DNA of 64,000 nucleotides from Cyclobacteriaceae bacterium (GTDB lineage Bacteria > Bacteroidota > Bacteroidia > Cytophagales > Cyclobacteriaceae), in contig JAEUUF010000002.1 of NCBI GenBank assembly GCA_016787645.1, forward strand, positions 408,472 through 472,471, in the 5' to 3' direction. The translations under genes were made by a program, and so were the position numbers. The notes beneath the pieces are model-generated. The model was given only the letters and a program-made list of their open reading frames with translations. It had not been told where the DNA came from and made no database searches. Shown here piece by piece: positions 36,561 to 60,697 of this stretch. Numbering within the stretch: the stretch's first letter is position 1; every line of letters begins with the position of its first letter.

Positions 36561-36570
36561 ATATTTGAAC

Positions 36571-37572: not shown

Positions 37573-38404
37573 CTCCATGGAAGATCCATTCCGCAACGCC
37601 TTGCTGGCGGTGGAACAAGCGTGCCTCGCGTTGCGGCTTGATTTCTATGTGTTGGGTGCGCTAGCCAAGGAGGTGTGGTTCCGCAGCGAGCGCATTGCCA
37701 GCAGAGGAACGCGGGATGTTGATATTGCGGTTTTCGTGTCGGAAGAAGATCAATTTCAAAGACTCAAGGAGTTACTGATAGTGGACCATGCTTTTACAGG
37801 TTCGAAGGAAAATTCTTTTGTTCTTCGCGCACCGGGCGGCATTCAGGTCGACATTCTGCCCTTCGGTCAGCTGGAAGTCAATAACGGGGTAGCCGTCTCG
37901 GGCGGCGGACTGAACAGGATAAAAGTAAATGGGTTCAAGGAGGTCTATTTTCGCAATATCGCATCAGCGAGGGTCTTGGAAGACCGGGAATACAAGATTG
38001 CCACCCTACCTGGTATTGTACTCTTAAAGCTGATTGCTTACGATGATCGACCTGAGCAGCGCGACAAGGATCCTCTCGACTGCATCGCAATCATTGAAAA
38101 CTATTTTGAACTCCAGAGCAACTTGATCTGGGATTCTCATAATGATTTGTTCAGCGACAATGCCAACCTAAAGATGATTGCGGCGCGGGTGATCGGTCGG
38201 GAAATGCAGGGGTCACTGTATGAAAATCTTCAACTTCGGGAACGTATAGAGAAAATACTTGGACACCACATTGAATTGGGTGAAAGGAGCTCTTTCGTCA
38301 TGAAGATGGCCTCCCAGACAAATGCCACAATCGAGAATTGTACCGAGTATTTGAGTGAAATTCTTAACGGAATTCGAGACGAGCGTACGCCGGCTGGTAT
38401 ATAG
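37541..38404 (+). CDS. AbiEii-like nucleotidyltransferase toxin
   Basis: A 287-residue protein with a DNA-polymerase-beta-type nucleotidyltransferase core: YVLGALAKEVWF (GG/GS-like loop), RGTRDVDIAVFV with catalytic-type D59 and D61, and GGIQVDILPFG with a third Asp. The rest is helical. AbiEii toxins add nucleotides, in characterised cases to tRNA, to stop growth during phage infection. ATG 37541 overlaps the antitoxin gene; ATG 37577 just after the antitoxin stop is an alternative. Immediately downstream is the decayed copy of the NHL gene end. Confidence 0.8.
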   Translation: MSDILKPISGSSMEDPFRNALLAVEQACLALRLDFYVLGALAKEVWFRSERIASRGTRDVDIAVFVSEEDQFQRLKELLIVDHAFTGSKENSFVLRAPGGIQVDILPFGQLEVNNGVAVSGGGLNRIKVNGFKEVYFRNIASARVLEDREYKIATLPGIVLLKLIAYDDRPEQRDKDPLDCIAIIENYFELQSNLIWDSHNDLFSDNANLKMIAARVIGREMQGSLYENLQLRERIEKILGHHIELGERSSFVMKMASQTNATIENCTEYLSEILNGIRDERTPAGI

Positions 38405-43400: not shown

Positions 43401-43780
43401 AGTCAGAAAAGAATCAAGACTCTTTGCAAGGTGTATCCAGCAAGAGCCTAAGCAATGTGGAAAAGAAGGCCATCAAGAACCTGAATGCCGTGGTGAAGCA
43501 CGCCCCAACAGAACAGAAGCGAAAAGCAATGTTGCGCGTGATTGAAATCATTAAGAAGGGAACGTTTGCTTCCAAAGGGATGCCAAAGTCGGTCAACGAT
43601 TTCTTCGCCGCTAACGGCTACATGCTAAAGGATCATGAACAGTTTTTTGACCTGCTCTTCAAAACGGTCCTCGATCGGTATGATCTTTCCAGTCGGGTGG
43701 AGGACGGTCATTTTTCCGAACAAGCTGGTTATCGGGGCATCATCAATCCAAGAATTGTATTGACTCAAAGCTTTGAATAA
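40415..43780 (+). CDS. PLD-nuclease and SNF2-helicase fusion (restriction translocase)
   Basis: A 1121-residue protein. The N-terminal 200 residues form one phospholipase-D-type nuclease unit with H134-x-K136 (IHAKVYIF) and G156-S-S-N159 (GSSNLTDSG). Superfamily 2 SNF2-type ATPase lobes follow: Walker A DVVGLGKT with K286, DESH at D363-H366, SATPLNNRP, and motif VI QRIGRVNRIG near R801-R807. A helical C-terminal third completes it. A PLD unit with a dsDNA translocase is the cutting arm of several NTP-dependent restriction systems. The stop overlaps the methyltransferase start (TAATG), so the two form one system. It resembles DISARM and BREX parts in kind, but no drmA/B, pglZ or brx gene is present. 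Confidence 0.88.
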   Translation: MSTKFFTNQSTETSLLTKFEGVFGHVPTIHCFDALVGYFRASGYFHIRPFLNRIPKIRILVGINVDKLTKKYHDKGQYYLENPEDTKEAFLEETLKNIQEADYDDETESGILQFIDDLITGKVELRAHPKKKIHAKVYIFRPANFNEHAPCEVITGSSNLTDSGLGSFPDSNYEFNVSLRDYDDVKFATDEFEHLWEESVPILTAEAKRLKKESYLRDDYTPFELYMKMLIEYFGKRVDYDPYNIELLLPDKYRRLKYQSDAANQGFAIMMKHNGFILADVVGLGKTIVACMIIKKFVYENGTHTKVLVVVPPAIKSSWQTTVKEFQLDNHFRFITLGSLHKILDTDNSDFPNPEEFDLVVVDESHKFRNDYTDMYVKLQEICKRPRSRAAENGDTRKKVILVSATPLNNRPQDIENQLYLFQDRRNCTLENIQNLQEYFKKINDTYQKLAGETPLNIPKLKQLFEKLRNDVIEPLVIRRTRTDIENNQEYLDDIREQGIEFPKIDDPISLHYKLDRSLSQLFLDTVELITGIDEDGEETEGLGYYRYRAIEYLANDSDKRIYGDVRSISGRLSAIMRTLLVKRLESSVYAFTQSLTRLGKAVDNMISMLDHDRVFIAPDLDINFLLEEGLGFDEIEAKINQKGGNNREFKATKFRKDFYGLLKSDKRLIDGLIERWKAVRIDPKLVEFMKQIDSTFFIKKRNPSGKLVVFTESKETADELTEKLIKKGGHKILSISADNRQPMEATIRNNFDANLDPEKWRDEYDIIITTEVLAEGINLHRSNTIVNYDVPWNATRLMQRIGRVNRIGSTAKQVYVYNYYPSAQGDAQIQLVNNALRKLQAFHSAFGEDNKIFSLLEEKGEGGLFGSKIQREESEILKYLNELRTFRKSNPKLFKQLAKIPSKARCGRKATQGQEVNLISTADEQLNYPLQHTSIAYLKSDNHPGIFCLVTPDLGAVELNFLEAARVYRADQHEKAVPLHQSHHSQVLAALDFFKSEKNQDSLQGVSSKSLSNVEKKAIKNLNAVVKHAPTEQKRKAMLRVIEIIKKGTFASKGMPKSVNDFFAANGYMLKDHEQFFDLLFKTVLDRYDLSSRVEDGHFSEQAGYRGIINPRIVLTQSFE

Positions 43781-46700
43781 TGGCTACGCACAAGGAATTA
43801 CAGAATGCGCTACAGCACCCCTACGACCGAATGCTTTTTGTCAAAGGTGTTTTGCATCCGGTGTTTGGGGCATCCCTTAAACTTCTGGACAAGCCGCAAA
43901 AACCTTCCATTGATTTGACAAAGACAGAGACAGCGGTGATTGACAAGGTGCTGATTTATGGGTCAATTGACCTCGAAGACGGCGCCGATGTGACCTGCTA
44001 TGAGGTGGTGTTGAAGCCTACAGTGCGAATTGAACAAAGCCGGGTGGCGATCCAGCAGTACGTTCGCAAGCTCTTGATTTCCGGCCAGGCGGCATTGGTC
44101 AATTTTGTTGCCCCTGACAACAAGGACATGTGGCGGTTTACCCTGGTGGCCAAAGACAGCAAGGTTACGGGTAAAGGGGTAATCGAAACTGCCACACATC
44201 CCAAACGATACACCTACCTGGTTGAAAAGGATAGGCCAAACCGAACAATGGCGGAACGCATGTGGGTGCTTTCTCTATCGAAAGGAATTACATCTGAAGC
44301 TCTGATTGCGGCCTTCTCAGTCGAGGCAATGACGAAGGCCTTTTTTGACGAGTACAAGGAACACTATCAAAACTTCGTAGAGTACCTCACCGGCAAGCGC
44401 CTGACGAAGCAAAGCGGCAAATGGGTGGAGAAGAAGACTGGCCGGCCACATGCATTTCTGGCTTCAATGTTCAATGGCGACGAGAAGGCCGCGAGGGATT
44501 TCATCAAGAAGTTGATGGGCCGGATTGTATTTCTCTATTTCGTGCAAAAGAAGCGCTGGCTGGGCGCGACAACCACGAAGTATACCGATGGATCGTATGA
44601 TTTTCTATATGACTTGTTTACGCAAACCGGCGGCGATGAGCGATTCTTCCCGGTTGGACTTTCGGAACTGTTCTTCAATGCGTTGAACACCAAGCGGAAG
44701 GGTGATGATTGGAAATTGCCAACAGGCCAGGTGGTCAAAGTGCCTTATTTGAACGGAGGCCTTTTTGAGCGCGATGAGATCGACGAAAAGATCCACAAGA
44801 AGGGAGACCTACTCACGTTTCCGCCTCGCCTCTTCTCACACGTGGACAAGATGGACACGCCGAATGCCAGGGGATTTTTGGATTTTCTGAATGCCTACAA
44901 CTTTACCGTGTACGAAGACAGTGAAGATGACCATACCGTGGCCGTTGACCCGGAAATGCTTGGCCATATCTTCGAAAACCTACTGGAAGACAACAAAGAC
45001 AAGGGGGCTTTTTATACCCCCAAGGAAATCGTTCGGTACATGTGTCAGGAGAGTCTGTACGAATACCTGAAGACGTACTTGCAATCAAACAAGCATTGGC
45101 CGGCCAGGGAGGAAAAAGGGAAGGAACTGGAAGGCCACCTTCATGAGTTTGTCACGAAGAAGATTGCGGGAAACGTTATTGAGCTGGATGAGCCGCTGGC
45201 CAAAGCTTTACGCGATGTGAAGATTTGTGATCCGGCCATTGGTTCCGGCGCTTTCCCCATGGGGTTGCTGAGCGAGATATTTCATAGTGTGCAGGCGCTT
45301 TATGAACCCAGCCCGGACAAGGTCGGTGCCGTGTGGGGCATCCAAGACTGGCAGCCGCATGAAGTTAAAAAGCATATCATTCAAAACAGCATCTATGGGG
45401 TGGACATTGAAAAAGGCGCGGTGGACATTGCCCGATTGCGCTTCTGGCTTAGTCTGATTGTGGATGAACCGGCTCCGACGGCCTTGCCCAATCTTGACTA
45501 TAAGATTGTTGTGGGTAATTCTTTGGTAAGTAAACTGGATGGTGAAATCGTGGATATCGATTGGAACGCGGATGAGACAAGTCAGGGGCTATTTGGGGCG
45601 GAATTGATTGAAAAGAAGAGAAAGCTCCTCGAGCGGATCAGCTTAGAGCAAAAGGAAATCTTTAACCCGGAGAGTGATAAGAAGAAATTGGTGGCAGATG
45701 TCCGAAAATTAAAGATCGAACTTCTGGCGAATCAGCTAGAGCAAATGATCAAGCTGGCTAATCAGGATAGCGCCCCGAAGGAAGCCAGTTTCACGGACAA
45801 AAAGAAATTTGTGAAAGCGACTGAAAACTATCACGATGTCCTGGGCTGGAAAGATCGGCTAAAGCGACTTAAAGAAATCAAGGTAAGGCCAGATGAGAAA
45901 TTGGACTACTTCGATTGGAAGCTTGATTTTCCAGAAGTAATGAATGATCAGTTGGTCTTCAAACCTGGATTTGACATTGTTATTGGAAACCCCCCTTACA
46001 TCGGTGAAAAGGGAAACAAGGGAAAATTTCAGGACGTGAATTTGGGAGGCCTCAAAGATTTCTATTTGAAAAAAATGGATTACTTCTACTATTTCTTTCA
46101 TCTGGCCCTCAACCTTGTGCAAAAGGATGCCATAGTATGTTTTATTACAACCAACTATTTTGTAACAGCTACTGGCGCAACAAATTTGAGAAGGGACTTA
46201 TTTCAGAGAGCGACCGTTAAGAAGCTCGTCAACTTTGGCGAGGCGAAAGTGTTTCCAAGTGCAATGGGGCAGCATAACATGATAACCGTATTGACAAAGA
46301 GTCAGATGAATGCTCCCACTGAGGTGATTACTGTGAAAAGAACAACCGTCCTTGAGTCAAATGACTTTGAAAGGATATTTTCTAATGTTGACCACGAAAC
46401 GGACTATAGACAAGTCAAAAAGGAAGATCTCTTCGATGGTACAAATAGGTATATCAGACTCGTTACTACCGGAAATCGGAAGAATGATTCATCAATCAAG
46501 GGCATACTTGCAAAAATGGAGAGTCAGGGGGTTTTGCTTGGGAATGTATGTGAAGTAAATCAAGGGCTGCGAACAGGAGCTGACAAAGTGTCGCCAAAAC
46601 ATCTTCGAGAGTATGGATACAATCCTAACTATAGTTTGGGAGATGGTATCTTTATTCTCAGGCAGGTGGAGGTTGATAGAATGAAACTGAATGGATTCGA

Positions 46701-47406
46701 GCGAACTAGACTTAGGCCATTATTCAAGAATTCTGACATAGCTAAGTATATAGCGAAAATGGAAACTAACTATAAACTGATTGACTTATTTTGGCCGAAT
46801 GATAGGGACTTGGACATTTCAAGAATTCCCAATTTGATGGGACACCTTAAAAGGTTCAAGCCTATTCTAGAGGGCAGAAGGGAGAATGCAAATGGCATTG
46901 ATAAAGCGATCGCCAGGGGTTTGTTCTATTTTGGTTCGGTGAGACGAAAAATTGATTTTGACTTGCCAAAGATAGTTTCTCCCCAAAGATCGAGAACAAA
47001 TACATTTGCATTTGTACCAGAAGCATGGTTTGCAAGTGCTGATGTCTATTATATAACTGACCCAAGTGGAGCTGTTGATTTGATGCATCTGCTGGGTTTG
47101 TTGAATTCAAGGTTGTATAATGTCTGGCTGACCTTCAAGGGCAAGGCCAAAGGAGGGATGCTGGAATTATATCAGAAGCCGCTTACAGAAATTCCAATCA
47201 AGTTTTCAGAGGGTGCTTCCATTATAGCCACGTTATCAACTAAAATATATGAAATGAAGAGAAAGAATTTGGATACAACTAAACTGGAGCGTGAAATCGA
47301 CTTGCATGTTTATAGATTATACAAGCTTTCATATGAAGAAACTAAAGTTGTGGACCCAGATTTCACTTTGACCACAGAGGAGTACTATACGGACTCAAAT
47401 TATTGA
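43780..47406 (+). CDS. Eco57I-type adenine methyltransferase with specificity domain
   Basis: A 1208-residue protein. The N-terminal 400 residues are of unknown fold. Then comes a PglX/Eco57I-type helical lead (DPEMLGHIFENLL, GAFYTPKEIVRYM), SAM-binding motif I DPAIGSGAF (D484-F492), the N6-adenine catalytic motif N737-P-P-Y740 (IGNPPYIGE), and a TaqI-like C-terminal target-recognition region (LLGNVCEVNQGLRTG). I see no clear nuclease motif in the N-terminus; cutting would come from the PLD-SNF2 partner. It would mark host DNA and set the recognition sequence. It is translationally coupled to the partner gene by a one-base overlap. Confidence 0.88.
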   Translation: MATHKELQNALQHPYDRMLFVKGVLHPVFGASLKLLDKPQKPSIDLTKTETAVIDKVLIYGSIDLEDGADVTCYEVVLKPTVRIEQSRVAIQQYVRKLLISGQAALVNFVAPDNKDMWRFTLVAKDSKVTGKGVIETATHPKRYTYLVEKDRPNRTMAERMWVLSLSKGITSEALIAAFSVEAMTKAFFDEYKEHYQNFVEYLTGKRLTKQSGKWVEKKTGRPHAFLASMFNGDEKAARDFIKKLMGRIVFLYFVQKKRWLGATTTKYTDGSYDFLYDLFTQTGGDERFFPVGLSELFFNALNTKRKGDDWKLPTGQVVKVPYLNGGLFERDEIDEKIHKKGDLLTFPPRLFSHVDKMDTPNARGFLDFLNAYNFTVYEDSEDDHTVAVDPEMLGHIFENLLEDNKDKGAFYTPKEIVRYMCQESLYEYLKTYLQSNKHWPAREEKGKELEGHLHEFVTKKIAGNVIELDEPLAKALRDVKICDPAIGSGAFPMGLLSEIFHSVQALYEPSPDKVGAVWGIQDWQPHEVKKHIIQNSIYGVDIEKGAVDIARLRFWLSLIVDEPAPTALPNLDYKIVVGNSLVSKLDGEIVDIDWNADETSQGLFGAELIEKKRKLLERISLEQKEIFNPESDKKKLVADVRKLKIELLANQLEQMIKLANQDSAPKEASFTDKKKFVKATENYHDVLGWKDRLKRLKEIKVRPDEKLDYFDWKLDFPEVMNDQLVFKPGFDIVIGNPPYIGEKGNKGKFQDVNLGGLKDFYLKKMDYFYYFFHLALNLVQKDAIVCFITTNYFVTATGATNLRRDLFQRATVKKLVNFGEAKVFPSAMGQHNMITVLTKSQMNAPTEVITVKRTTVLESNDFERIFSNVDHETDYRQVKKEDLFDGTNRYIRLVTTGNRKNDSSIKGILAKMESQGVLLGNVCEVNQGLRTGADKVSPKHLREYGYNPNYSLGDGIFILRQVEVDRMKLNGFERTRLRPLFKNSDIAKYIAKMETNYKLIDLFWPNDRDLDISRIPNLMGHLKRFKPILEGRRENANGIDKAIARGLFYFGSVRRKIDFDLPKIVSPQRSRTNTFAFVPEAWFASADVYYITDPSGAVDLMHLLGLLNSRLYNVWLTFKGKAKGGMLELYQKPLTEIPIKFSEGASIIATLSTKIYEMKRKNLDTTKLEREIDLHVYRLYKLSYEETKVVDPDFTLTTEEYYTDSNY

Positions 47407-47661: not shown

Positions 47662-50600
47662 ATGAAAGAACCTGATCTGTTTCACGGGATAACAAAAGAG
47701 CATGTGGAAAGTGCCCTTCGTCTCATTGACCGTGAAGGATACCCTCCCGCAAGAAGATCAAGTGTGTATGATCTGGTTGCAGAGGGTATTGCCTACCCAC
47801 CAAAGTATGTTATGTCGCTCGCCGGTTATTTGCGGGATGGGAATTACATCAGGCATACCCAATTCGAAGGAGGAGAGGACAAAGTCAGCTTTGCTTACTT
47901 GAGGAATCTTGGGTTTACGATTTTGCCTAAGGAGAAGACCACTGGCTTGCAAAGAGCAAGAGAAAACGCTGAGATAACCGGAAAGTATGTTGATCAAAAG
48001 GTTGGGTCTGTTGGTTCAGCGGATGGTCTTGGACTGTGGATCGTAAAGTACAAGCAACTTATTGTCGGCAAGCGTCCTGGGGTGGTATACAATGAGCTGT
48101 ACAAATGGGAAACAGTTCGGCATTTCCAGCAAAACTGGACCGACAACCATACAGGATCCACGATCCTGGGCGTGTTGAAGAAATCTTTTAACAAGGAAAA
48201 CAACAACCTATGGAGCGGGCAAAACTTCTTTCCCTATGCCATGTTGCTGCAGTTTGCGGAGCAGGATGGAGAGAGGGTTTCGAGAATGTTCAAGAACCTA
48301 TTTGATGAAAGTACTCCGCTGGAGAAACGATTCAATGAGTTTTATGCTGAAGCGGAGGAGGCACTGAAGAAGGGATTTCCTGGGAGAGATATTGTCCACT
48401 ATCAGAGCGATCGGGTATTGATGCTCTATTTGACGCTACGGTATCCGGGGAAATACTTTCTCTACAAGTCCAAGATGTTCAAGGGCTTTTGTGAGCAGAC
48501 CGGCTTCTGGACCGTTCCTAAGACCAAAAAGAAGGAGACGTTTGGAAAGGTGGAGGAGTACCTTAAGATGTGCGAAGCGTTGAACAAGGTGCTGGTGACT
48601 GATGCGGAGTTGATGGAACTACACAAGCGCCGCCTTCCCGCTTCCATTACATTCAAGGATAATGAGCATATGCTCACTCAGGATTTCATTTATGCGGTGA
48701 CTACGTACTTGTCCGAAGATGGAGATGATGAAGCTGAATTCCTGGAGGTAGTGAAGCTTCATAGCGGCCGAACCCTGAGCGAATATTTCAATTTTCTGGA
48801 TTCACTGCTGAGTCATCTCCAAATCAGTGAGCCGGATGAACGGATCACGTTTAGCTGCAAGTCCCAACAGTTGAGTTTCATTATCGGCCATCGGTATGCG
48901 CTCGTGCTATTCAAGGATAAGCAGTCGACCAGATTCGGTGTGATGTCACCGAAGGAAATTGATGCCACTACTTCCTCTTTTGAGGGTCTCCCTGAGGCAT
49001 TCTATTCAAGACTCCAGGCTAGTGATGTGGAGACCTATTTGCCAGATATCAAGAAGGCATGCACTGTTGAACTGGATAGGACCGAACGGTCAAGGGACCT
49101 CGCCAATAATAACCCGTTCTTCCAAAAGGCGGCCTTCGATAAATCGTACAGGGATAAGCTATTTTCAAACCGTTTGTCCATGACTCCATCTACTGTGAGC
49201 CTGAATCAAATCCTTTTTGGTCCTCCGGGCACGGGGAAGACCTACCACACCATCAATGAAGCGATCAGGATCGTGGACCCTGAATACTACAGGTTACATG
49301 CACAACACCGGGATAAACTGCGTGAGCGATTCAATGAGCTCCTGATCAAGGATTGGAAGGATACGACCGGACAAGTAGCCTTCTGCACCTTTCATCAGTC
49401 TTTCAGCTACGAGGATTTTGTCGAAGGAATCAAACCCGAAGTGACGGAAGAGAAGCAGGTGGTATACAGAATTAAGGATGGAATCTTTAAGCTTATTTGC
49501 CGGCTTTCGGAAGACAATCGATTATCAGCCCAAGTAAAGAGCGACCGGCTGATCGGCTGGAATGAGGAAACTTTTCAGAAGGCTTCATTTTACAAGATGT
49601 CTTTGGGAAATGTAAATGACCCGGATGACGAGGCGGTCTATGAATATTGTATCGCGAATGGCTGCATAGCCCTTGGTTTTGGGGCGGCAACTGATTTTAG
49701 CGGCTTGGACGAATCAGGAGTTATCGCCAAAGGCAAGGAGCTGAACCTCAGAGACTATGCAATTAGCGCCTTGAATCGGTTCAAGAACTATTTGAGGGTG
49801 GGCAATTATGTGATCGTTAGTAAGGGCAACCGGTATATACGGGCTATTGGGAGAGTGACTGGAGAATACGGTTTCGATGCCAATGCGCCTGGTGATTATT
49901 ACCATACCCGTAGCGTGGAGTGGATCATTAAGGACAAGAACATTCCTGTCGCTGAGGTGTACAATCGCAATTTGTCACAACAAACCATTTATAAGATTGA
50001 CGAAGAGGGCATAAATAAGAATTTCTTCGTCCGTGGTGCCTCAGAACCGGCTGTGACAATCAAGGACAAGAACTATGTATTGATTATAGACGAAATCAAC
50101 CGCGGCAATGTGTCCAGTATTTTTGGCGAACTGATCACGCTGATTGAGAAGGACAAGCGATCAGATGGCGATGAGCCTCTGGAAGTAACGCTGCCTTATA
50201 GTAAGGAACAATTTACCGTCCCCGGTAATGTATTTATTGTCGGCACAATGAATACAGCCGACCGGAGCATCGAATCATTGGATACTGCCTTAAGAAGGAG
50301 ATTTTCTTTTACAGAAATGCCGTCAAGGCCAGAGTTGATCAAATCAGAAGGCAAATTGAAACCAACCGGCAAACTTGGAGAACTTGACCTGGTCAAGATG
50401 CTTGAGAAAATCAACGAACGCATTGGCAAGCTGGTTGACAAGGATCACAAAATAGGGCATTCCTATTTCCTGGATGTAGCTACTATTGAAGACCTCAGAA
50501 TCGTGTTCCGGAATAAGGTCATTCCACTTTTGGAGGAGTACTTCTTTGGTGATTTTGGCAAGATCGGTCTGGTGCTGGGCAACAGTTTTGTGCAGAAGGA

Positions 50601-50739
50601 GAGTGAAAAGAATTTTGGTTTCGCGGAGTTTGACGGCTATGACGATGGGGCTGTCGTGGAAGATTTGAGAAATCGTTCGATCTACCGAATTGCGGACAAA
50701 GACTGGGAATTGGAAGATTTCAAGTCCATTTATGCCTAG
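47662..50739 (+). CDS. mcrB: McrB-like GTPase with ScoMcrA-type head and an inserted EVE-like domain
   Basis: A 1025-residue protein. Residues 1-90 match the ScoMcrA-like N-terminal head pattern (EHVESALRLIDREGYPP, GIAYPPKYVMSLAG, FEGGED). A middle region of unknown fold runs to about 510. The AAA+ domain has Walker A GPPGTGKT (G520-T527), Walker B LIIDEINRGN (D810, E811) and the McrB GTP-signature MNTADRS (863-869). About 115 residues (roughly 640-755, with FYKMSLGNV and VGNYVIVSKGNRYIRAIGRV) are inserted between Walker A and B and look like an EVE/PUA-type modified-base pocket. It would assemble on modified or foreign DNA and drive McrC. Confidence 0.9.
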   Translation: MKEPDLFHGITKEHVESALRLIDREGYPPARRSSVYDLVAEGIAYPPKYVMSLAGYLRDGNYIRHTQFEGGEDKVSFAYLRNLGFTILPKEKTTGLQRARENAEITGKYVDQKVGSVGSADGLGLWIVKYKQLIVGKRPGVVYNELYKWETVRHFQQNWTDNHTGSTILGVLKKSFNKENNNLWSGQNFFPYAMLLQFAEQDGERVSRMFKNLFDESTPLEKRFNEFYAEAEEALKKGFPGRDIVHYQSDRVLMLYLTLRYPGKYFLYKSKMFKGFCEQTGFWTVPKTKKKETFGKVEEYLKMCEALNKVLVTDAELMELHKRRLPASITFKDNEHMLTQDFIYAVTTYLSEDGDDEAEFLEVVKLHSGRTLSEYFNFLDSLLSHLQISEPDERITFSCKSQQLSFIIGHRYALVLFKDKQSTRFGVMSPKEIDATTSSFEGLPEAFYSRLQASDVETYLPDIKKACTVELDRTERSRDLANNNPFFQKAAFDKSYRDKLFSNRLSMTPSTVSLNQILFGPPGTGKTYHTINEAIRIVDPEYYRLHAQHRDKLRERFNELLIKDWKDTTGQVAFCTFHQSFSYEDFVEGIKPEVTEEKQVVYRIKDGIFKLICRLSEDNRLSAQVKSDRLIGWNEETFQKASFYKMSLGNVNDPDDEAVYEYCIANGCIALGFGAATDFSGLDESGVIAKGKELNLRDYAISALNRFKNYLRVGNYVIVSKGNRYIRAIGRVTGEYGFDANAPGDYYHTRSVEWIIKDKNIPVAEVYNRNLSQQTIYKIDEEGINKNFFVRGASEPAVTIKDKNYVLIIDEINRGNVSSIFGELITLIEKDKRSDGDEPLEVTLPYSKEQFTVPGNVFIVGTMNTADRSIESLDTALRRRFSFTEMPSRPELIKSEGKLKPTGKLGELDLVKMLEKINERIGKLVDKDHKIGHSYFLDVATIEDLRIVFRNKVIPLLEEYFFGDFGKIGLVLGNSFVQKESEKNFGFAEFDGYDDGAVVEDLRNRSIYRIADKDWELEDFKSIYA

Positions 50740-52027
50740 AACGATTCAGGTATTTGAGCATGAGCAATTAACCCTGAGGCCTGACCGATGGGGTAGAAAG
50801 CTAGAACCTGAAGAGCTTGAGAAACTCTACGCTTTTAATGACCGGAAGGACAACGTTTACTTTACCGGGATTCGCCATGGGATCAAGTTCAAAAGTTATG
50901 TCGGCGTTATTCAGATAGGTGGGCTTACATTGGAGATTCTCCCAAAGGCGGATAAGCAAAAGGAGGGAACCGAGTCCGAACATTCGGCAGTCACGGCCCA
51001 GTGGAGAAATGCTCTGCTGCGCATGCTGGCAATCTGCCGGCATATTGACCTTGAATCGGTCTCGGAGGCCAACCTGGAGCGACGGCATCATTCAATTCTT
51101 GATCTCTATTTTGAGATCTTTCTTCAAGAAGTCGATAAGCTTCTGCATCAAGGACTATCGAAGAAGTACCGACACGCCCAAGGAAATGTAACCGCTCTGA
51201 AAGGAAGACTTGATTTTGGTCGCAACATTAGCCAAAACCTGATTCACCAGGAGCGATTTTATACCCATCATCAGGTGTACGATCAGGATCATCTGATAAA
51301 TCAGATTTTACTTCGTGCCCTAATTATTTTGGATCAGATAGCGACTAGTCCGTTCATAAAAGACAGGTTGGCCCGGGTGATGTTGGATTTTCCAGAGATA
51401 AAGGAAATGAGCATCCAAGCCCATCATTTCGAGCGACTTTCAGAGAATCGGAAGACCATTCATTACCAAAAAGCAATTCAGATTGCCAAGATGATTATTC
51501 TGAACTATTCCCCGGATATTCGGGGAGGTCATGAGGATATGCTGGCCTTGTTGTTTGACATGAATAAGCTCTGGGAGGAGTATGTCTATCGCGTACTTCA
51601 GCATGAAGCACCAGATAATACCTCCGTAAGCTTTCAAAACTCAAAACTTTTCTGGCAATCGGAACAAGTGAAGAAAAATATTCGTCCAGACCTCGTAATC
51701 ACAAGAACGGTGGGAGGTGAAAAAGAGACATATATCGTTGATACAAAGTGGAAAGTGCTCGACGACTTGAGGCCGGATGATGGCGATCTCAAGCAGATAT
51801 TTGCCTATAATCTTTACTGGGAGAGCTACCATAGTATTTTGTTGTATCCTTCGACGCAGACCAGGACATTACCGGTCAGGGGGATGTATGAGAAGGGAAT
51901 GAGTAAGGACCATGGGTGTATGTTAGCGTTTGTGGAGGTTTTGGATAAAGACGGTAAATTGAATGGGGGGTGTGCGGAGCAGGTGTGGTCGTGGATGACA
52001 GAGGTCAATACAGTGAGGAGCCTTTAA
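50732..52027 (+). CDS. mcrC: McrC-like nuclease subunit
   Basis: A 431-residue protein. The N-terminal domain (residues 1-100, with FTGIRHGIKFKSYVGVIQIGGLTLEILPK) is the McrC OB-like part that contacts the McrB ring. The C-terminal domain is a PD-(D/E)xK nuclease with D320 (NIRPDLVI), D337 and K339 (IVDTKWK), followed by QIFAYNLYW. The ATG at 50732 overlaps the mcrB stop by 8 bp, so the genes are coupled. A longer frame from 50690 lies inside mcrB and is unlikely. It cuts DNA once the McrB GTPase ring is engaged. Confidence 0.92.
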   Translation: MPRTIQVFEHEQLTLRPDRWGRKLEPEELEKLYAFNDRKDNVYFTGIRHGIKFKSYVGVIQIGGLTLEILPKADKQKEGTESEHSAVTAQWRNALLRMLAICRHIDLESVSEANLERRHHSILDLYFEIFLQEVDKLLHQGLSKKYRHAQGNVTALKGRLDFGRNISQNLIHQERFYTHHQVYDQDHLINQILLRALIILDQIATSPFIKDRLARVMLDFPEIKEMSIQAHHFERLSENRKTIHYQKAIQIAKMIILNYSPDIRGGHEDMLALLFDMNKLWEEYVYRVLQHEAPDNTSVSFQNSKLFWQSEQVKKNIRPDLVITRTVGGEKETYIVDTKWKVLDDLRPDDGDLKQIFAYNLYWESYHSILLYPSTQTRTLPVRGMYEKGMSKDHGCMLAFVEVLDKDGKLNGGCAEQVWSWMTEVNTVRSL

Positions 52028-52036
52028 ATTTGGTAA

Positions 52037-55000
52037 ATGAGCTCTATCGCGTTCATTGATACGGAGATTGATGCATCCGGCAAGTCAATTCTCGATATAG
52101 GAGGTGTCCGGGATAGTGGGAGCATCTTTCACTCGAATTCTATTGCCGGCTTTACCGAGTTTTTGAGTGGCGCCGATTTCATAGGTGGTCACAATATTCT
52201 CAATCATGATGTGAAGTACATCGGCGGATTGCTGGAGCGTCTTGGTATTCAGGAGGGGAACATCGTCGATACCTTGTTTCTTTCCCCTTTGTTTTTCCCT
52301 GCAAAGCCATACCATGCATTGATCAAGGATGACAAGATTGCACCTGATTCTCTCAATAATCCGCTTAATGATTCAATAGCTGCCAGAGAATTATTCTTTG
52401 CAGAGAAGGATGCTTTTGAAAGCTTAGACGAGGCTCTTAAAACAATATTCTATCGACTGCTAGCGGATAATCGTGAATTTGGGGCCTTCTTTCGGTTCAT
52501 AGGATTCAAGCCTATTGAAGAGAATGCTCTGAGTCTTATTCGAAGACGATTCAAGAGCGAGGTTTGTGAGTCTGCAAATATGGAACAGCTAATTGCTGAG
52601 ACTCCGATTGAGTTGGCATATTCTTTAGCACTTATTAATTGCCACGACCATTACTCGATCACCCCGAGATGGGTTTTGAAGAATTATCCAAATGTGGAGA
52701 GGGTGATGTACTTGTTGCGCGGCAACCCTTGTTTAAGTGGCTGCAGTTATTGTAACCAGGCATATGATATCCACAAAGGCTTAAAGAAGTACTTCGGCTT
52801 TGATTCCTACAGGACATATGCAGGGGAAGCGCTACAGGAGAAGGCTGTAACTGCCGCATTGAGCAATAAATCCATCTTGGCTGTATTTCCTACAGGAGGA
52901 GGTAAATCAATAACGTTTCAGGTTCCGGCGCTTATGAGTGGCGCAAACAGGCGAGGGCTTACTGTCGTCATCTCGCCTTTACAAGCTTTGATGAAGGACC
53001 AGGTTGACAATCTTGAGAGAAAGCATAGCATAACAGATGCGGTGACCATCAACGGTCTTCTAGATCCTATCGAGCGAAAGAGGTCAATTGATCGAGTGGA
53101 GGATGGTTCAGCTTCGATTCTTTACATATCTCCTGAGTCGCTGCGTTCGCGAACGATTGAGCGCGCCTTGCTGGGCAGAAACGTTGTTCGATTTGTGATT
53201 GACGAGGCTCACTGCTTTTCTTCATGGGGCCAAAGTTTTCGTGTTGACTATTTATACATCGGCGACTTCATCAAGTCCTTTCAGGACAAGAAGCAGCTTA
53301 CTGAAGGGATTCCTGTTTCATGCTTTACAGCGACAGCTAAGCAGAAAGTGATTGAAGATATCAAGGAGTATTTCTTTGCGAAGTTGAATTTGAAGTTGGA
53401 GGTATATACCAGTAGTGGTTCACGCGACAATCTTCATTTTAAGGTACTGGCGATTGAAAAGGAAGCCGACAAATATGCGGCCACAAAGCGCCTGCTCGAG
53501 GAAAAGCAGTGCCCGTCGATCATTTACGTATCCAGAACGGGTAAAGCGAAAAAATTAGCTGATAAGCTTACGAATGATGGTTTTCCGGCCAAACCTTACC
53601 ATGGTAAAATGGAAGTGAGCGATAAGACAGCCAATCAAGAAGCTTTCATGAATGGGAAGGTATCAACCATGGTGGCCACTTCTGCATTTGGGATGGGGGT
53701 TGACAAGAAAGATATTGGTCTGATAATTCACTACGATATTTCGGATTCCCTGGAGAGTTACGTACAAGAGGCCGGTCGGGCCGGTCGAGATGAGCACATT
53801 CAAGCAGACTGTTACGTTTTATTCGCTGAGGAGGATCTTGACAAACATTTCATCCTATTGAATCAAACCAGAATTACCAAAGATGAGATACAGCAGGTTT
53901 GGGGTGCAATAAAGGGCTTGACCGGATTTAATAAGAAGAATCTAAAGCAATCGGCTTTGGAGATCGCCCGCAAAGCAGGATGGGATGATCGCATATCTGA
54001 GATTGAAACACGAGTGACAACAGCGATTGCAGCTCTGGAAGATGCCGGTTATATAGCCCGTGGTCAAAACATGCCCCGTGTATATGCTAATAGCATTAAG
54101 TCAGCGAATGCCCAAGAGGCAATTGAAGTGATAAACGCTTCGGAACGATTTAATCCGAAGGATAAAGAAAATGCTACTCGAATCATTAAAAAGCTGATTT
54201 CAAGCAAGAGACGGAAGCAATCTGTGGATGATGAGGCCGAATCCAGAATTGACTATATCGCTGATCACCTCGGTATTCGGAAGGAGGAAGTCATTGGTAT
54301 TGTTAATAAGTTACGTGAGGAAAGGATTCTGGCTGATGGAAAGGACTTGACAGCTTTTATTAGGCGACGGGAGAGCAGGAATCAACCCCTTAATCTTCTG
54401 GAAGTTTATGTCAGGCTTGAGAGATTTTTGTTGAGCATTGTGGAGGAGCAGCCTAAGACACTAAATGTCAAACAACTGAATCAGGATGCTGAGTTGAGCA
54501 ATTGCCAGGAAGTAACTCCTGCCAGGATAACAACGATCTTTAATATTTGGTCTATCAAGAATTGGATCAAGCGCCAAAACATGAAGGACTCACGGAACTA
54601 CGTTAAAGTGGTTTCTCTATTACCGATTGAGAGCCTTAAGCTCAAACTAGACAAGAGAGCTGAATTGGCAAAGTTCATTCTGACAGTGCTTTTGGAGAAG
54701 TGCGATCATTTGCAAGTAGATCGTGAGAGTGAAGAAGTGCAAGTGGAATTTTCGGTCCTTGAGATGAAGGAGGAGTTTGAACGAAGACCCAAGCTGTTCG
54801 AGATTTCATCGTCTGTCGAAGATATGGAGGATGCACTATTCTATCTCTCACGAATCGAGGCGATCAAAATAGAAGGTGGCTTCATGGTCCTCTACAATCA
54901 GCTTACAATTGATCGCTTGGAAGTTGACAATAGGCGACGTTACAAGGATCAGGAGTATAGCAAATTGGAGCGTTTTTATAAGAGCCGGGTTCAACAGATT

Positions 55001-56857
55001 CATATTGTGGGCGAGTATGCCAAAAGAATGATAACCGATTATCGGAGTGCCTTGACCTTTGTCGAGGACTATTTTAGTCTGAACTACAGTTCATTTCTTG
55101 GAAAGTACTTTAAGGATACGCGTGGGGTAGATATCGAGAGAAATATAAGTCCATCTAAATATAGGAGACTATTTGGGGACTTGTCACCGGAGCAATTAGC
55201 AATCGTTACCGAAAAGAAAGCAAAATACATGGTAGTTGCTGCCGGGCCGGGAAGTGGTAAGACGCGAGTACTGGTTCACAAGCTGGCTTCAGTACTCTTA
55301 ATGGAGGAAGTAAAGCATGAACAGTTACTCATGTTAACATTTTCTAGAGCGGCTGCAACGGAATTCAAGATTCGCTTGATAGAGCTTATCGGCAATGCAG
55401 CGAATTCTGTTGAAATTAGAACATTTCATTCCTTTGCTTTTGATATCCTAGGCATGGTGGGATCGCTTGGAAATGCAGAAGTCGTGGTAAGTCTTGCAAC
55501 AAAAAAAATCATAGATGGTGAAATTGAGCCCAGTAGGATTGCCAAGTTGGTATTGGTTATTGATGAGGCTCAGGATATGACAGAGCATGAGTTTGGACTG
55601 ATAGAGGCCCTAATGAAAAAGAACGAAGGGATGAGGGTAATTGCCGTAGGGGATGATGATCAATGCATTTTCCAGTGGAGAGGAGCAAGTGCAAAGTATT
55701 TGCATCAATTAATACGCGCATATGGGGCGAAGAAATATGAATTAGCTCTAAACTATAGAAGTAAGAGGAATATAGTCCAATTTACAAATCAGTGGGTTCT
55801 GAGAATTAATGATCGTTTAAAGACTCGGCCGATTGAGGCAAGGTATACGGATTACGGCAAATTGCGAATCTTTCGTCACGAAGTGGGATCAATGATTGTG
55901 CCGCTGGTTGATGACATCGAGCAAAGCGAACTTGTTGGTACGACTTGCGTGATTGCAAGAACAAATGCTGAGACGCTGGAGATTTGGGGCCTTCTTTTGC
56001 ATAGAGGAATTCCGGCGAGGCTAATACAAAGTTATAACTGGTTGCGGTTGTATGACCTTGTTGAGGTGAGGTTCTTTTTGAGTTGCCTAGGGGATGAGCA
56101 GCGCTCTGTCATTTCAGATGATATTTGGGTAAGCGCAAAAAAGGCGCTTAATAGGGAATTTGCAAGGAGCACGAAGCTGAGCGTTTGTAATGCCATGATC
56201 AAGGAATTTGAATTGAGTAATCCAAAACGAAGATACTGGTCTGACTTGGAAATATTTATTGAGGAGTCAAGAGTCGATGATTTCGTTCCAGCATCTGCTG
56301 ACATCATTCTGGTTTCGACAATACATAAGGCAAAGGGCAAGGAATTTGATAATGTTTTCCTAATGCTGAAGGGTGGAAGTCCTGCCAAGGATGAAGATTA
56401 TAGACAGCTATATGTAGCTATGACCCGGGCGAAGACCAGCTTGACGATACATCTTGATCAAGGTTACTTAGACGATATCAATGTTGAGGGCATTGAGCGT
56501 CTGGTCGACCAGAACTACTATAAGGCACCTGACCAAATAGTAGTGCAGTTATCAATGCGGGATGTGTGGTTAGATGGGTTTGCCAGAATGCAAATGGACA
56601 TCTCGAAGTTGATACCGGGTGATACTCTTTTCTATCGGGAGAACGGTCTATGTGACACTAAGGGTCACCAAGTGCTTTTCTTTTCAAGTCAGTTCACAGC
56701 TCGGTTGACTGAATTAGCAAAACAGGACTATATACCTGTTTCTGCAAAAGTGGACTTTGTTGTTTACTGGAAAGGAGAAAGCCTCTCGTCGGAGATTAAG
56801 ATTGTTTTGCCTGAGATAACGTTTGGCAAAAGATCTAGTTTTGTTGATAAGCGCTGA
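52037..56857 (+). CDS. Exonuclease-RecQ-UvrD fusion helicase
   Basis: A 1606-residue three-machine protein. Residues 1-125 resemble a DEDD 3'-5' exonuclease: D8-x-E10 (FIDTEID), D58 (HNILNHD) and D112 (NPLND); the usual His five residues before the last Asp is not there. A Cys cluster (NPCLSGCSYC) precedes a RecQ-type SF2 helicase with GGGKS (K290), DEAH (389-392) and ESYVQEAGRAGRDE. A helical middle of about 400 residues leads to a UvrD-type SF1 helicase: GPGSGKT (K1075), DEAQD (1176-1180), GDDDQCIFQWRG, TIHKAKGKEFD and AMTRAKTSLTI. About 80 C-terminal residues are unassigned. It starts 9 bp after mcrC, so it probably processes ends made by McrBC or acts as its own anti-phage enzyme. Confidence 0.88.
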   Translation: MSSIAFIDTEIDASGKSILDIGGVRDSGSIFHSNSIAGFTEFLSGADFIGGHNILNHDVKYIGGLLERLGIQEGNIVDTLFLSPLFFPAKPYHALIKDDKIAPDSLNNPLNDSIAARELFFAEKDAFESLDEALKTIFYRLLADNREFGAFFRFIGFKPIEENALSLIRRRFKSEVCESANMEQLIAETPIELAYSLALINCHDHYSITPRWVLKNYPNVERVMYLLRGNPCLSGCSYCNQAYDIHKGLKKYFGFDSYRTYAGEALQEKAVTAALSNKSILAVFPTGGGKSITFQVPALMSGANRRGLTVVISPLQALMKDQVDNLERKHSITDAVTINGLLDPIERKRSIDRVEDGSASILYISPESLRSRTIERALLGRNVVRFVIDEAHCFSSWGQSFRVDYLYIGDFIKSFQDKKQLTEGIPVSCFTATAKQKVIEDIKEYFFAKLNLKLEVYTSSGSRDNLHFKVLAIEKEADKYAATKRLLEEKQCPSIIYVSRTGKAKKLADKLTNDGFPAKPYHGKMEVSDKTANQEAFMNGKVSTMVATSAFGMGVDKKDIGLIIHYDISDSLESYVQEAGRAGRDEHIQADCYVLFAEEDLDKHFILLNQTRITKDEIQQVWGAIKGLTGFNKKNLKQSALEIARKAGWDDRISEIETRVTTAIAALEDAGYIARGQNMPRVYANSIKSANAQEAIEVINASERFNPKDKENATRIIKKLISSKRRKQSVDDEAESRIDYIADHLGIRKEEVIGIVNKLREERILADGKDLTAFIRRRESRNQPLNLLEVYVRLERFLLSIVEEQPKTLNVKQLNQDAELSNCQEVTPARITTIFNIWSIKNWIKRQNMKDSRNYVKVVSLLPIESLKLKLDKRAELAKFILTVLLEKCDHLQVDRESEEVQVEFSVLEMKEEFERRPKLFEISSSVEDMEDALFYLSRIEAIKIEGGFMVLYNQLTIDRLEVDNRRRYKDQEYSKLERFYKSRVQQIHIVGEYAKRMITDYRSALTFVEDYFSLNYSSFLGKYFKDTRGVDIERNISPSKYRRLFGDLSPEQLAIVTEKKAKYMVVAAGPGSGKTRVLVHKLASVLLMEEVKHEQLLMLTFSRAAATEFKIRLIELIGNAANSVEIRTFHSFAFDILGMVGSLGNAEVVVSLATKKIIDGEIEPSRIAKLVLVIDEAQDMTEHEFGLIEALMKKNEGMRVIAVGDDDQCIFQWRGASAKYLHQLIRAYGAKKYELALNYRSKRNIVQFTNQWVLRINDRLKTRPIEARYTDYGKLRIFRHEVGSMIVPLVDDIEQSELVGTTCVIARTNAETLEIWGLLLHRGIPARLIQSYNWLRLYDLVEVRFFLSCLGDEQRSVISDDIWVSAKKALNREFARSTKLSVCNAMIKEFELSNPKRRYWSDLEIFIEESRVDDFVPASADIILVSTIHKAKGKEFDNVFLMLKGGSPAKDEDYRQLYVAMTRAKTSLTIHLDQGYLDDINVEGIERLVDQNYYKAPDQIVVQLSMRDVWLDGFARMQMDISKLIPGDTLFYRENGLCDTKGHQVLFFSSQFTARLTELAKQDYIPVSAKVDFVVYWKGESLSSEIKIVLPEITFGKRSSFVDKR

Positions 56858-56910: not shown

Positions 56911-57735
56911 ATGATGAAATTGCTTAACTATACCTTGATTAGTATTTCGGTCTGGCTTGTCCTATTGTTGATATCAAGTTATGCCTTTACTGTGTGGCTC
57001 AATCCGATTGATTGGGAAACCGCCATTGGGGCTGTCAATTCTATAGTTGCCGCATTAGCTTTTGTTGGGATTATTTATACCGTGCAGATTCAGCGAAAAG
57101 AATTGAAGCTGCAGCGAAAAGAGTTGAAGTCGACTAGACGTGAGTTTCAGGAGCAGAATATTACTTTCAAGAAGCAGCGATTCGAGACGACTTTTTTCAA
57201 TCTATTGAATCTTCATAATTCTTTAACCGAGAAACTAACAATGCCAGTTGGAGGGCGCATTCAGCATGGGCGAGAAGCTATCCGAGATGCATACGGAGAG
57301 TTCAAGGTCAAATATTTGGAGTATTTAAGAATCAATGGCGCGCGTGAGTTTACGTGGGAGAATCTGCAGAAGATCAGACAATTGGTGATCTCTATCTTCA
57401 ACTCATTTTTTGGGGAAAAAGAAGAGTATCTTGGCCACTACCTGCGCAGCATTCATGGACTCCTAAAGTTTGTATCGGATACGGAATTAATTGAAGATAA
57501 GGAGAAGAGGCGTTATTATGATATGATAATCTCTCATTTGAATTCATACGAAGTATGCCTGGTTTATTACTATATGTCTGCTGGTCCTGGATTTACGGAC
57601 AGGAGAATGTTTGATTCTGCCCATCTAGGTGCTAGATTGAATACAGGGCTTTTAGCGGACGTGAATCATGGGCTTTTATTTGATCCCGATGAAATTATCA
57701 GGGCTGTACTCTCTATAAAGAATTTGCCTCATTAG
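56911..57735 (+). CDS. putAbiC-family membrane protein (putative phage abortive infection)
   Basis: A 274-residue protein: two transmembrane helices (about 5-27 and 40-60), a charged coiled coil (IQRKELKLQRKELKSTRREF), then the putAbiC signature (EQNITFKKQRFETTFFNLLNLHNSL). The C-terminal helical domain has YLGHYLRSIHGLLKFV and YEVCLVYYYMSAGPGF. Members are linked to abortive infection, acting at the membrane. It is last in the island, 53 bp after the fusion helicase, and is the likeliest growth-arrest or lysis effector; that role is inferred from the family and position. Confidence 0.85.
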   Translation: MMKLLNYTLISISVWLVLLLISSYAFTVWLNPIDWETAIGAVNSIVAALAFVGIIYTVQIQRKELKLQRKELKSTRREFQEQNITFKKQRFETTFFNLLNLHNSLTEKLTMPVGGRIQHGREAIRDAYGEFKVKYLEYLRINGAREFTWENLQKIRQLVISIFNSFFGEKEEYLGHYLRSIHGLLKFVSDTELIEDKEKRRYYDMIISHLNSYEVCLVYYYMSAGPGFTDRRMFDSAHLGARLNTGLLADVNHGLLFDPDEIIRAVLSIKNLPH

Positions 57736-59136: not shown

Positions 59137-59249
59137 CAACCCCGTCGGGGAAAATCGTCCATCAACCTGCGTAAATCCTCCATGGTAAGCCGTGTGCCGG
59201 CGCCCCACTTTTGTATCGTCAACAACGACGAACACTAAAACAAAAAAAC

Positions 59250-59807
59250 ATGACACGCTTACAAGCATTAAGCCCTGAGCAAGCCTCGGGCAAAACAAAA
59301 GAGTTGTTCAATGGCATTCAAGGCAAACTAGGCATGGTACCCAACATGATGCGCACGATGGGCAATTCGTCAGCCGTGCTGGAAGGATACCTCCAGTTGA
59401 GTGGAGCACTTGGCCACGGTACCCTGGGCGCCAAAACAGGAGAACTGATCGCGCTGGCGGTGGCAGAAAGCAATGCCTGCGATTATTGCCTCTCCGCTCA
59501 TTCTTTCATCGGAGAAAAACTGGTGGGCATCGACATCCCGTCGCTGACAGCCGCCAGGGAAGGCAAAAGCAACAATCCGAAAACGGATGCCGCCCTGAAA
59601 TTCGCGCGTGCATTGGTGGCCAAAAGAGGCTCCGTAACGGATGCCGACGTAGCCGCCGTGAAAGCTGCGGGGTATACGGATGGCGAAGTGGGTGAAATTG
59701 TGGCTCACGTGGCGCTGAATATTTTCACGAACTACCTCAACAAGACCGCCCAAACAACCATTGATTTTCCGGTCGTTACGGCCCATGAAGAAGTGGGAGT
59801 TGTATAA
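59250..59807 (+). CDS. AhpD-like peroxidase-related / carboxymuconolactone-decarboxylase-family protein
   Basis: A 185-residue protein with the AhpD/CMD core. The redox motif is C77-x-x-C80 with H84 (ESNACDYCLSAHSFIG). An N-terminal phrase (GKTKELFNGIQGKLGMVPNMMRTM) is typical of the peroxidase-related AhpD-like group. It probably reduces alkyl hydroperoxides or recycles a peroxiredoxin. ATG 59250 gives MTRLQALSPEQ; the frame opens 39 bp earlier at a TTG. A perfect hairpin separates it from the MOSC gene. Confidence 0.88.
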   Translation: MTRLQALSPEQASGKTKELFNGIQGKLGMVPNMMRTMGNSSAVLEGYLQLSGALGHGTLGAKTGELIALAVAESNACDYCLSAHSFIGEKLVGIDIPSLTAAREGKSNNPKTDAALKFARALVAKRGSVTDADVAAVKAAGYTDGEVGEIVAHVALNIFTNYLNKTAQTTIDFPVVTAHEEVGVV

Positions 59808-59843
59808 AGAGTAGTTGTGTGTCCAATTAAACCGTTATCTTTT

Positions 59844-59874
59844 AATGGGTCGGGGTCATTCATCCCGACCCATT
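59844..59874 (+). terminator. Hairpin between AhpD-like and MOSC genes
   Basis: AATGGGTCGGG (59844-59854) pairs perfectly with CCCGACCCATT (59864-59874), loop of 9 nt, 36 bp after the AhpD-like stop and 16 bp before the MOSC ATG. No T-run follows, so it may be a partial terminator or transcript-stabilising stem. Confidence 0.55.
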
Positions 59875-59890
59875 ATCTCCTTGAAACCTG

Positions 59891-60697
59891 ATGAAAGCTT
59901 TTATTTCACGCATCCGCATCTATCCCATCAAATCGCTGGATCCTGTCGAACTGCAGGAAGCAGAAGTGGGCACGCACTCGCTGCGCTATGATCGGGAGTT
60001 TGCCATGCTGGCCCCCGATGGCCGGTTTATGAATGGCAAACGATCGGGCCGGGTGAATGAATTGAAGGCGGTCTATGATATCCCCAACTACCGGGTAACC
60101 TTTTCCGACCGTTTGGGTGGACCGGAAACTTCCTTTCATTTGCAAAACGAGCAAACCGGTGTGGAGCAGTACTTAAGCAACTTCTTTGGTGAACCGGTAT
60201 CCCTCGTGCACAATACGGAAGGTCAACTCATGGATATCCCGACGGCCAGCAGCGTGACGATCCTGAGCGAAGCCACGCTGCAATCCCTGCATAAAGAGTT
60301 CTCCGATCGCAGCCTGGAAGACGTGCGCCTTCGCTTTCGTGCGACGATTGAGCTGGGCGGCGTCGAACCTTACTGGGAAGAGAAGCTGGTGGGTGAGCCC
60401 GGCATCGGCATGCGACTGACCATGGGCGATGTGGAAATGATCGGGGTAAGCCCGCGGGCCCGGTGCAATGTGCCGCCGCGGGATCCGCTGACCGGTGTTA
60501 CCGACAAGACGTTTGTCAGGCGCATGATGAAACACCGCGAGAAGACCTTGCCGGAAGGCAGTCACCTCGCGGCCTATGGCAGTTTGTACCACCTCACCAT
60601 CAACACCTATATACCCGTTACGCAAAAGGGGAAATGGCTACGGGTGGGTGACGAGGTAAGAATCCTGGAGCCCGTTCGACTGGAAAGTGCCTCCTGA
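59891..60697 (+). CDS. MOSC-domain protein (YcbX/mARC type)
   Basis: A 268-residue protein with an N-terminal MOSC beta-barrel (IRIYPIKSLDPVELQEAEV, LRYDREFAMLAPDGRFMNGKR) and a MOSC core. The core cysteine C192 (SPRARCNVPPRDPLTG) is at the place that binds molybdenum in mARC-like proteins. Such proteins reduce N-hydroxylated or sulfoxide compounds with the molybdenum cofactor. It lies between the AhpD-like gene and an AraC regulator on one strand, so a detoxification cluster is plausible. Confidence 0.88.
   Translation: MKAFISRIRIYPIKSLDPVELQEAEVGTHSLRYDREFAMLAPDGRFMNGKRSGRVNELKAVYDIPNYRVTFSDRLGGPETSFHLQNEQTGVEQYLSNFFGEPVSLVHNTEGQLMDIPTASSVTILSEATLQSLHKEFSDRSLEDVRLRFRATIELGGVEPYWEEKLVGEPGIGMRLTMGDVEMIGVSPRARCNVPPRDPLTGVTDKTFVRRMMKHREKTLPEGSHLAAYGSLYHLTINTYIPVTQKGKWLRVGDEVRILEPVRLESAS

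Follow-up and report, generated by a model that had tools for sequence, protein, structure and literature searches.

A single-chain fusion of an exonuclease-like domain, a RecQ helicase and a compact UvrD helicase with mobile carriage and a possible role against foreign DNA

The 64,000-nucleotide stretch of Cyclobacteriaceae DNA analysed here (the window) encodes a protein in which an exonuclease-like N-terminus precedes a RecQ (SF2) and a UvrD (SF1) motor, each with its motif set complete in the same chain of 1606 residues (Table 1). The fusion is real, old and mobile, and it seems autonomous: one chain holds three conserved active sites, it descends from a single old fusion, it is carried on mobile elements, its distribution is patchy and it has no fixed partner. 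An initial annotation made from the window alone had described a three-enzyme fusion, and this is genuine, since relatives down to 27-34% identity share its architecture and active-site residues; the recurrence of both across the 44 compared relatives places the fusion beyond chance. The D8/E10/D58/D112 set and the CX3CX2C cluster lie where that annotation had put them. We propose, with confidence that is about evenly balanced, that the protein is a mobile helicase-nuclease acting on its own to attack foreign DNA.

Table 1. Coordinates in the window of the fusion gene, its parts and its adjoining genes.
Feature	Position	Strand	Remarks
Exonuclease-RecQ-winged-helix-UvrD fusion	52037..56857	+	1606 aa, ATG start, 0 internal stops
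DEDD exonuclease-like domain (residues 1-128)	52037..52420	+	D8, E10, H52-N53, D58, H93, N107, D112
Four-cysteine site C177, C232, C236, C239 (residues 177-239)	52565..52753	+	Probable metal site, from conservation
RecQ SF2 helicase core (residues 240-618)	52754..53890	+	
Middle region (residues 618-1048), probably a winged-helix series	53888..55180	+	Weak HTH Pfam matches; model
Compact UvrD SF1 helicase (residues 1049-1476)	55181..56464	+	Lacks most of 1B, part of 2B
C-terminal mixed beta/alpha domain (residues 1477-1606)	56465..56854	+	Model
McrC	50690..52027	+	Stop 9 bp before the fusion ATG
McrB-like GTPase	47662..50739	+	
AbiP/putAbiC-like protein	56911..57735	+	53 bp after the fusion

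The RecQ core scores 258 bits against the family model TIGR00614 (cut-off 219.8) over residues 249-612 and contains all of the RecQ motifs (Walker A TGGGKS, DEAH at 389-392 and GRAGRDE), with K290 and DEAH kept in 45/45 sequences; its 298.1 bits against the RecQ equivalog TIGR01389 fall below the cut-off of 640.2. The UvrD part passes the superfamily cut-offs with 116 bits to PF00580 and 74 bits to PF13361 over residues 1049-1473, contains the motifs GPGSGKT, DEAQD and AMTRAK, and keeps K1075 in 43/43 and D1176/E1177 in 42/42 sequences, gapped rows omitted; the PcrA/UvrD equivalog gives 120 against a cut-off of 911 bits. RecQ and UvrD motors are both of the 3′-5′ type. The second motor is compact, with a 1B gap from the motif Ib region to DEAQD of 35 residues versus 120 in PcrA, a 2B region of 71 residues versus 157 in UvrD, and a modelled span of 455 residues versus 655 in the D. 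radiodurans enzyme. In UvrD enzymes 1B and 2B regulate unwinding. With both reduced, as judged from these lengths, translocation may outweigh unwinding in this motor. Between the two motors, residues 618-1048 gave weak HTH, MarR-like and Crp-like Pfam matches in several of nine members, and in the model a helix-helix-hairpin unit recurs at about 656-685, 738-776, 807-860 and 900-960; the middle region is probably a series of winged helices. The C-terminal 130 residues are modelled as a mixed sheet with pLDDT of about 82-92 save in the last few residues, and the PDB sequence search returned no match for the middle region or this tail.

The N-terminus reads as a putative DEDD exonuclease. Pfam gave no family for residues 1-262 of the window protein at E up to 1, and PHROG model 403 (DNA polymerase exonuclease subunit) weakly matched 21/25 N-termini, that of the window included (E 8e-4; best member E 1e-6). 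Against the PDB, the top five of 13 rows for the family profile were exodeoxyribonuclease III (three), PolC and DEDDh, at E 0.016-0.17, with names unrelated to exonucleases beginning at E 0.23, and hhalign with DnaQ aligned across motif II at E 0.024 with a weak probability of 2%, versus E 0.64 for RNase HI as a control. In the AlphaFold2 model (15 sequences; mean pLDDT 82), residues 1-128 are predicted to follow the order b-b-b-a-b-a-b-a-a, mostly at high confidence save for 93-105, with strands at 4-11, 18-25, 30-33, 48-51 and 76-78 and helices at 36-43, 55-68 and 109-128, the last bearing D112. This is the strand and helix order of RNase-H-like exonucleases. The RNase-H-like fold supposed by the initial annotation agrees with this predicted order but is answered only in part, because the listed rows of the fold search of the model were filled by RecQ. 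In the best 50 rows of each fold search there was no DEDD exonuclease, winged-helix or tail match, and the VIA reports span the motor domains alone and are uninformative for the rest.

The acids that define DEDD enzymes are kept across the family, D8, E10 and D58 in 44/44 aligned members and D112 in 43/44, the counts being out of 44 and not 45 because one relative (L063) is without the exonuclease residues. The His or Tyr near the last Asp that marks DEDDh and DEDDy enzymes is absent; at this motif III position, set from our own alignment and the PolC alignment, stands Asn in 41/44, Ser in 2/44, Lys in 1/44 and His in none. The missing His had been noted from the window sequence and read as a sign of a weak or altered exonuclease. 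The observation is correct and describes a family-wide trait, but the weak-exonuclease reading loses ground with the acids conserved: Asn in 41/44 members beside intact acids is not decay, and a decayed exonuclease as a family property is ruled out. One might guess that H93, kept in 43/44 aligned members and modelled at the edge of the low-confidence loop 93-105, takes over the role of the His. If the proposal holds, the family-wide His-to-Asn change would allow the role of the motif III residue in DEDD exonucleases to be tested cleanly. At one locus (L066, 9929-14872), close to a TOTE-type primase-helicase, D112 is replaced by Cys and N107 by Lys, and this copy is possibly a dead exonuclease with live helicases. 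A Sulfurospirillum plasmid encodes a protein (L137, 11983-12582) that matches the exonuclease part only and adjoins an AbiEii-like gene; it would be either a free-standing domain or a remnant of the fusion.

Following the exonuclease-like domain, C177, C232, C236 and C239 are all present in 42/45 sequences and jointly absent in three, an Aliarcobacter copy (L012, which retains one aligned Cys) and two cyanobacterial copies (L051, L053). The Aliarcobacter and cyanobacterial copies occupy different regions of the tree, two in all, so that the four residues must have disappeared, or arisen, jointly on more than one occasion. Presence together in 42/45 and loss together in three indicate that the cysteines probably bind metal, and their pattern is probably that expected of a four-ligand site for zinc or 4Fe-4S. 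A radical-SAM reading of CX3CX2C was rejected because the fourth Cys co-varies with the cluster.

The history of the fusion was followed in a family alignment of 45 sequences, the window and its 44 relatives, with one relative represented in the conservation counts by its first frame only (L049); the tree and the distance correlations exclude L049, L063, L065 and L070, leaving 41 sequences. Between the exonuclease, RecQ, middle and UvrD parts, pairwise distances show correlations of r = 0.96-0.97, and those in the tail of 0.85-0.88, and the former values argue for one old fusion whose parts have travelled together. Among the first 30 relative loci, 29 hold one long frame (1506-1791 aa) and one, that of G407, is split. 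Hosts comprise Bacteroidota, Campylobacterota, gamma- and alphaproteobacteria, cyanobacteria and a Brocadia MAG, and the tree mixes these taxa: the window pairs with the copy at L042 (support 0.92), and the same-genus copy L048 and the Brocadia copy group away from it, so that the window and L048 are not sisters. These placements are consistent with transfer, with the proviso that the Brocadia copy may be MAG contamination.

Mobile carriage is seen on plasmids and viral contigs. Plasmid records matching at E 1e-60 or better number 26, of which five align in a single place to 80% or more of the query, with hosts among Bacteroides, Aliarcobacter (next to parA), Allochromatium, Thiothrix, cyanobacteria and alphaproteobacteria. 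Viral contigs gave no matches to the protein used alone as query; with the alignment, 79 loci were kept and 14 bear the fusion, 11 at full length, the others being cut by the contig end (L065, L070) or without the N-terminus (L063). One of these contigs, presumably a prophage, encodes the large subunit of a terminase some 7.5 kb away from the fusion and a methylase adjoining the fusion (L069), others have replication genes (primase-like at L060, DNA polymerase A at L063), and L058, L059 and L066 have paired large serine recombinases. On a Nostoc plasmid the fusion gene is apparently split by an IS1634-type element (L138, 8968-15713). A phage origin was rejected: the 21 phage records found at E 1e-30 or better all cover less than 80% of the query, and the 20 of them that are listed match the RecQ part only. 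Helicases dominate the best 50 of 1534 BFVD matches, next to some RNA-polymerase, polyprotein and unnamed entries.

Travel on plasmids and viral contigs would be just as expected of a protein that maintains its own element, and mobile-element maintenance is the chief rival to defence. The protein would in that case repair, replicate or stabilise its carrier plasmid, ICE or phage, for example by restarting forks or handling ends made by host restriction, which we regard as somewhat unlikely. Plasmids of many hosts, with parA beside the Aliarcobacter copy, and viral contigs with terminase or replication genes speak for such a service, but the fusion is also found in single-contig genomes of 4-9 Mb (G033, G112, G455), the window copy sits inside a defence island and the copy on the Nostoc plasmid is apparently interrupted.

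A housekeeping pattern outside defence islands had been named in advance as the finding that would count against a specialised role. The fusion is widespread yet patchy, an accessory distribution: at E 1e-100 it occurs in 15/395 genomes of the phylum and 4/97 relatives, the own genome being counted in both and the broken copy of G407 in the latter. Human WRN joins an exonuclease and a RecQ helicase in one chain. The present fusion differs from WRN in being bacterial and mobile, in having Asn at motif III, and in its extra middle region and UvrD motor. It is improbable that the protein is an accessory host DNA-repair or recombination helicase of the WRN or RecQ kind with no part in conflict: RecQ and UvrD are repair families and the WRN layout is shared, but the host already has three further RecQ-like frames and two further frames matching the UvrD part, only 3/59 same-genus genomes (own included, one copy broken) have the fusion, and its tree mixes taxa.

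The setting of the window copy, described initially as lying next to McrBC, is an apparent defence island in which McrBC, AbiEi/AbiEii, AbiP-like and type IIG-like methylase genes surround the fusion. GC content is 0.40-0.49 at about 38.5-58 kb versus 0.48-0.55 on both sides, within 34-64 kb of the window. An AbiEi/AbiEii-type toxin-antitoxin pair (36565-38404) lies at the left edge of the island, immediately to the left of the low-GC stretch, and at 40415-47406 a PLD-SNF2 helicase gene overlaps one for a type IIG/PglX-like methylase. In a Prevotella stretch, relatives of these two genes (44% and 32% identity) are likewise close together, and a Parabacteroides stretch holds a SNF2-related gene and N-6 methylase pair, in both cases without the fusion; the PLD-SNF2 and methylase genes are likely a separate two-gene restriction-like system. 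McrC and the fusion probably share a transcript, an arrangement seen in the window only. Genes at 59211-60697 stand together in same-genus genomes G146 and G405 with no island genes within 20 kb, the left border not being found there; the two flank markers occur in 5/59 and 3/59 genus genomes, own included. To the left, a gene for an NHL-repeat protein (35135-36280) has a second copy, 93% identical, at another place in this genome (G000:C7:50-1180), and the protein is found in 3/59 genus genomes only, own included.

The tie to McrBC did not extend beyond the window. In the 44 other loci there were no relatives of the window's PLD-SNF2, methylase, McrC or AbiP proteins and one weak McrB match (L042), and McrBC partnership as a rule was rejected on the absence of McrC and that single weak McrB; no partner family recurs in more than 4/44 loci, and as the locus stretches are 6-37 kb long, a missing neighbour counts less for the short ones. 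Least probable of all is that the fusion is a subunit devoted to a larger system that includes McrBC, the PLD-SNF2 helicase and methylase and AbiP: it lies on one strand with them, following mcrC by 9 bp and preceding the AbiP-like gene by 53 bp, in an ARMADA-like order of SNF2 helicase, methylase and then SF2 and UvrD-type motors, but relatives of these neighbours are absent from the other loci save for the weak McrB, and the PLD-SNF2 and methylase pair (Prevotella), like the SNF2-related and N-6 methylase pair (Parabacteroides), occurs without it.

Restriction genes of several kinds do lie near the fusion elsewhere, namely type I (L013, L041), type III-like (L065, L071), type IV (L042), Eco57I with ResIII (L061), TOTE (L066) and a methylase (L069). 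Among the few neighbours examined in L009, L034, L035, L038, L039, L045 and L046 there were no defence or restriction-type genes, and the annotated flanks of L011 list no defence genes. These scans covered selected large neighbours of some loci, 19 proteins and then ten (one from the window and four repeats), and, on viral contigs, 101 of 115 listed neighbours of 14 loci, with ten rescanned singly. Relative to 80 merged methylase loci in 18 genomes, with the own genome excluded from the counts and ResIII matches, which include housekeeping helicases, left out, one methylase was found within 5 kb of the fusion versus 0.18 expected (P 0.16), two within 10 kb versus 0.34 (P 0.045) and four within 15 kb versus 0.48 (P 0.0015), the last four falling in 3/17 genomes, two of them in G034. 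The enrichment is modest and suggestive.

An attack on foreign DNA is favoured by the three conserved centres, the patchiness, mobile carriage, lack of a partner, varied restriction neighbours, 15-kb enrichment and low GC; against it stand the weak enrichment close in, the loci without defence genes, the loss of D112 at L066 and library matches confined to one motor. Every match among the best 25 of 68 from PADLOC and the best 25 of 39 from NCBIfam spans one motor only, and hence none of these rows shows a whole defence protein. We infer which DNA the protein would act on, the polarities and joint action of its motors, its metal site and its role in defence; in the proposed scheme the winged-helix array and the RecQ core would recognise an end, gap or branched replication intermediate of invader DNA. 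The RecQ motor would open the duplex 3′-5′ and the DEDD domain would trim the exposed 3′ strand 3′-5′, comparable to the pairing of DEDD exonuclease and helicase in WRN and ExoDinG, while the compact UvrD motor might pull single-stranded DNA or strip proteins from it. Breaks made by a nearby restriction enzyme would feed the fusion, with no such enzyme being required.

More tentatively than foreign-DNA attack as such, we suggest that the family is an unnamed class of one-gene immunity, in which a single-chain DEDD-Asn exonuclease with a metal-binding clamp, RecQ, winged-helix array and compact UvrD, mobile and present in at least six bacterial groups, would process foreign ends alone as a one-protein functional equivalent of RecBCD-type enzymes. 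If so, one gene would carry a whole machine for DNA-end resection, cooperation of two 3′-5′ motors with a nuclease could be studied in a simple system, and a defence protein not covered as a whole among the listed PADLOC and NCBIfam matches would be added to those known. The RecBCD- or AddAB-like counterpart first suggested holds as functional analogy only. RecBCD, AddAB and AdnAB differ from the fusion, which unites RecQ and UvrD in one chain, with a DEDD domain in place of PD-(D/E)XK; Pfam matched no PD-(D/E)XK nuclease in it, separate subunits are lacking, and the layout is closer to WRN.

Among described systems, Hna is a single-chain SF2 helicase and 3′-5′ single-strand DNA exonuclease with proven anti-phage activity and so a tested precedent for this combination in phage defence (PMC13381803). 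ExoDinG and Hna resemble the fusion in joining an SF2 helicase and a 3′-5′ exonuclease in one chain, but their helicase is DinG/XPD-like, the Hna nuclease is PD-(D/E)XK-like and there is no UvrD part. The family profile and GajB of Gabija, a UvrD-type motor, share a single aligned stretch, and no GajA partner was found among the window neighbours scanned. DpdF and RqlH/PsyrT, RecQ-like proteins of conflict systems, match the RecQ part (literature consulted: PMC4670107 on RqlH, PMC5512222, PMC9122126); the DpdF NCBIfam model gives 205.3 against a cut-off of 550, and the Pfam matches of the fusion include no PRTase domain such as that of RqlH/PsyrT. The ARMADA order, in which a SNF2 helicase and a methylase are joined by a YprA helicase and a GajB-like one (PMC12458937), resembles the window set and is not identical to it; none of the 16 window proteins run against Pfam has a YprA/DUF1998 label (ArmC). 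The open-access literature yielded no description of a RecQ and UvrD fusion, subscription papers being outside the scope, and annotated plasmid records label relatives of the fusion 'RecQ family ATP-dependent DNA helicase'.
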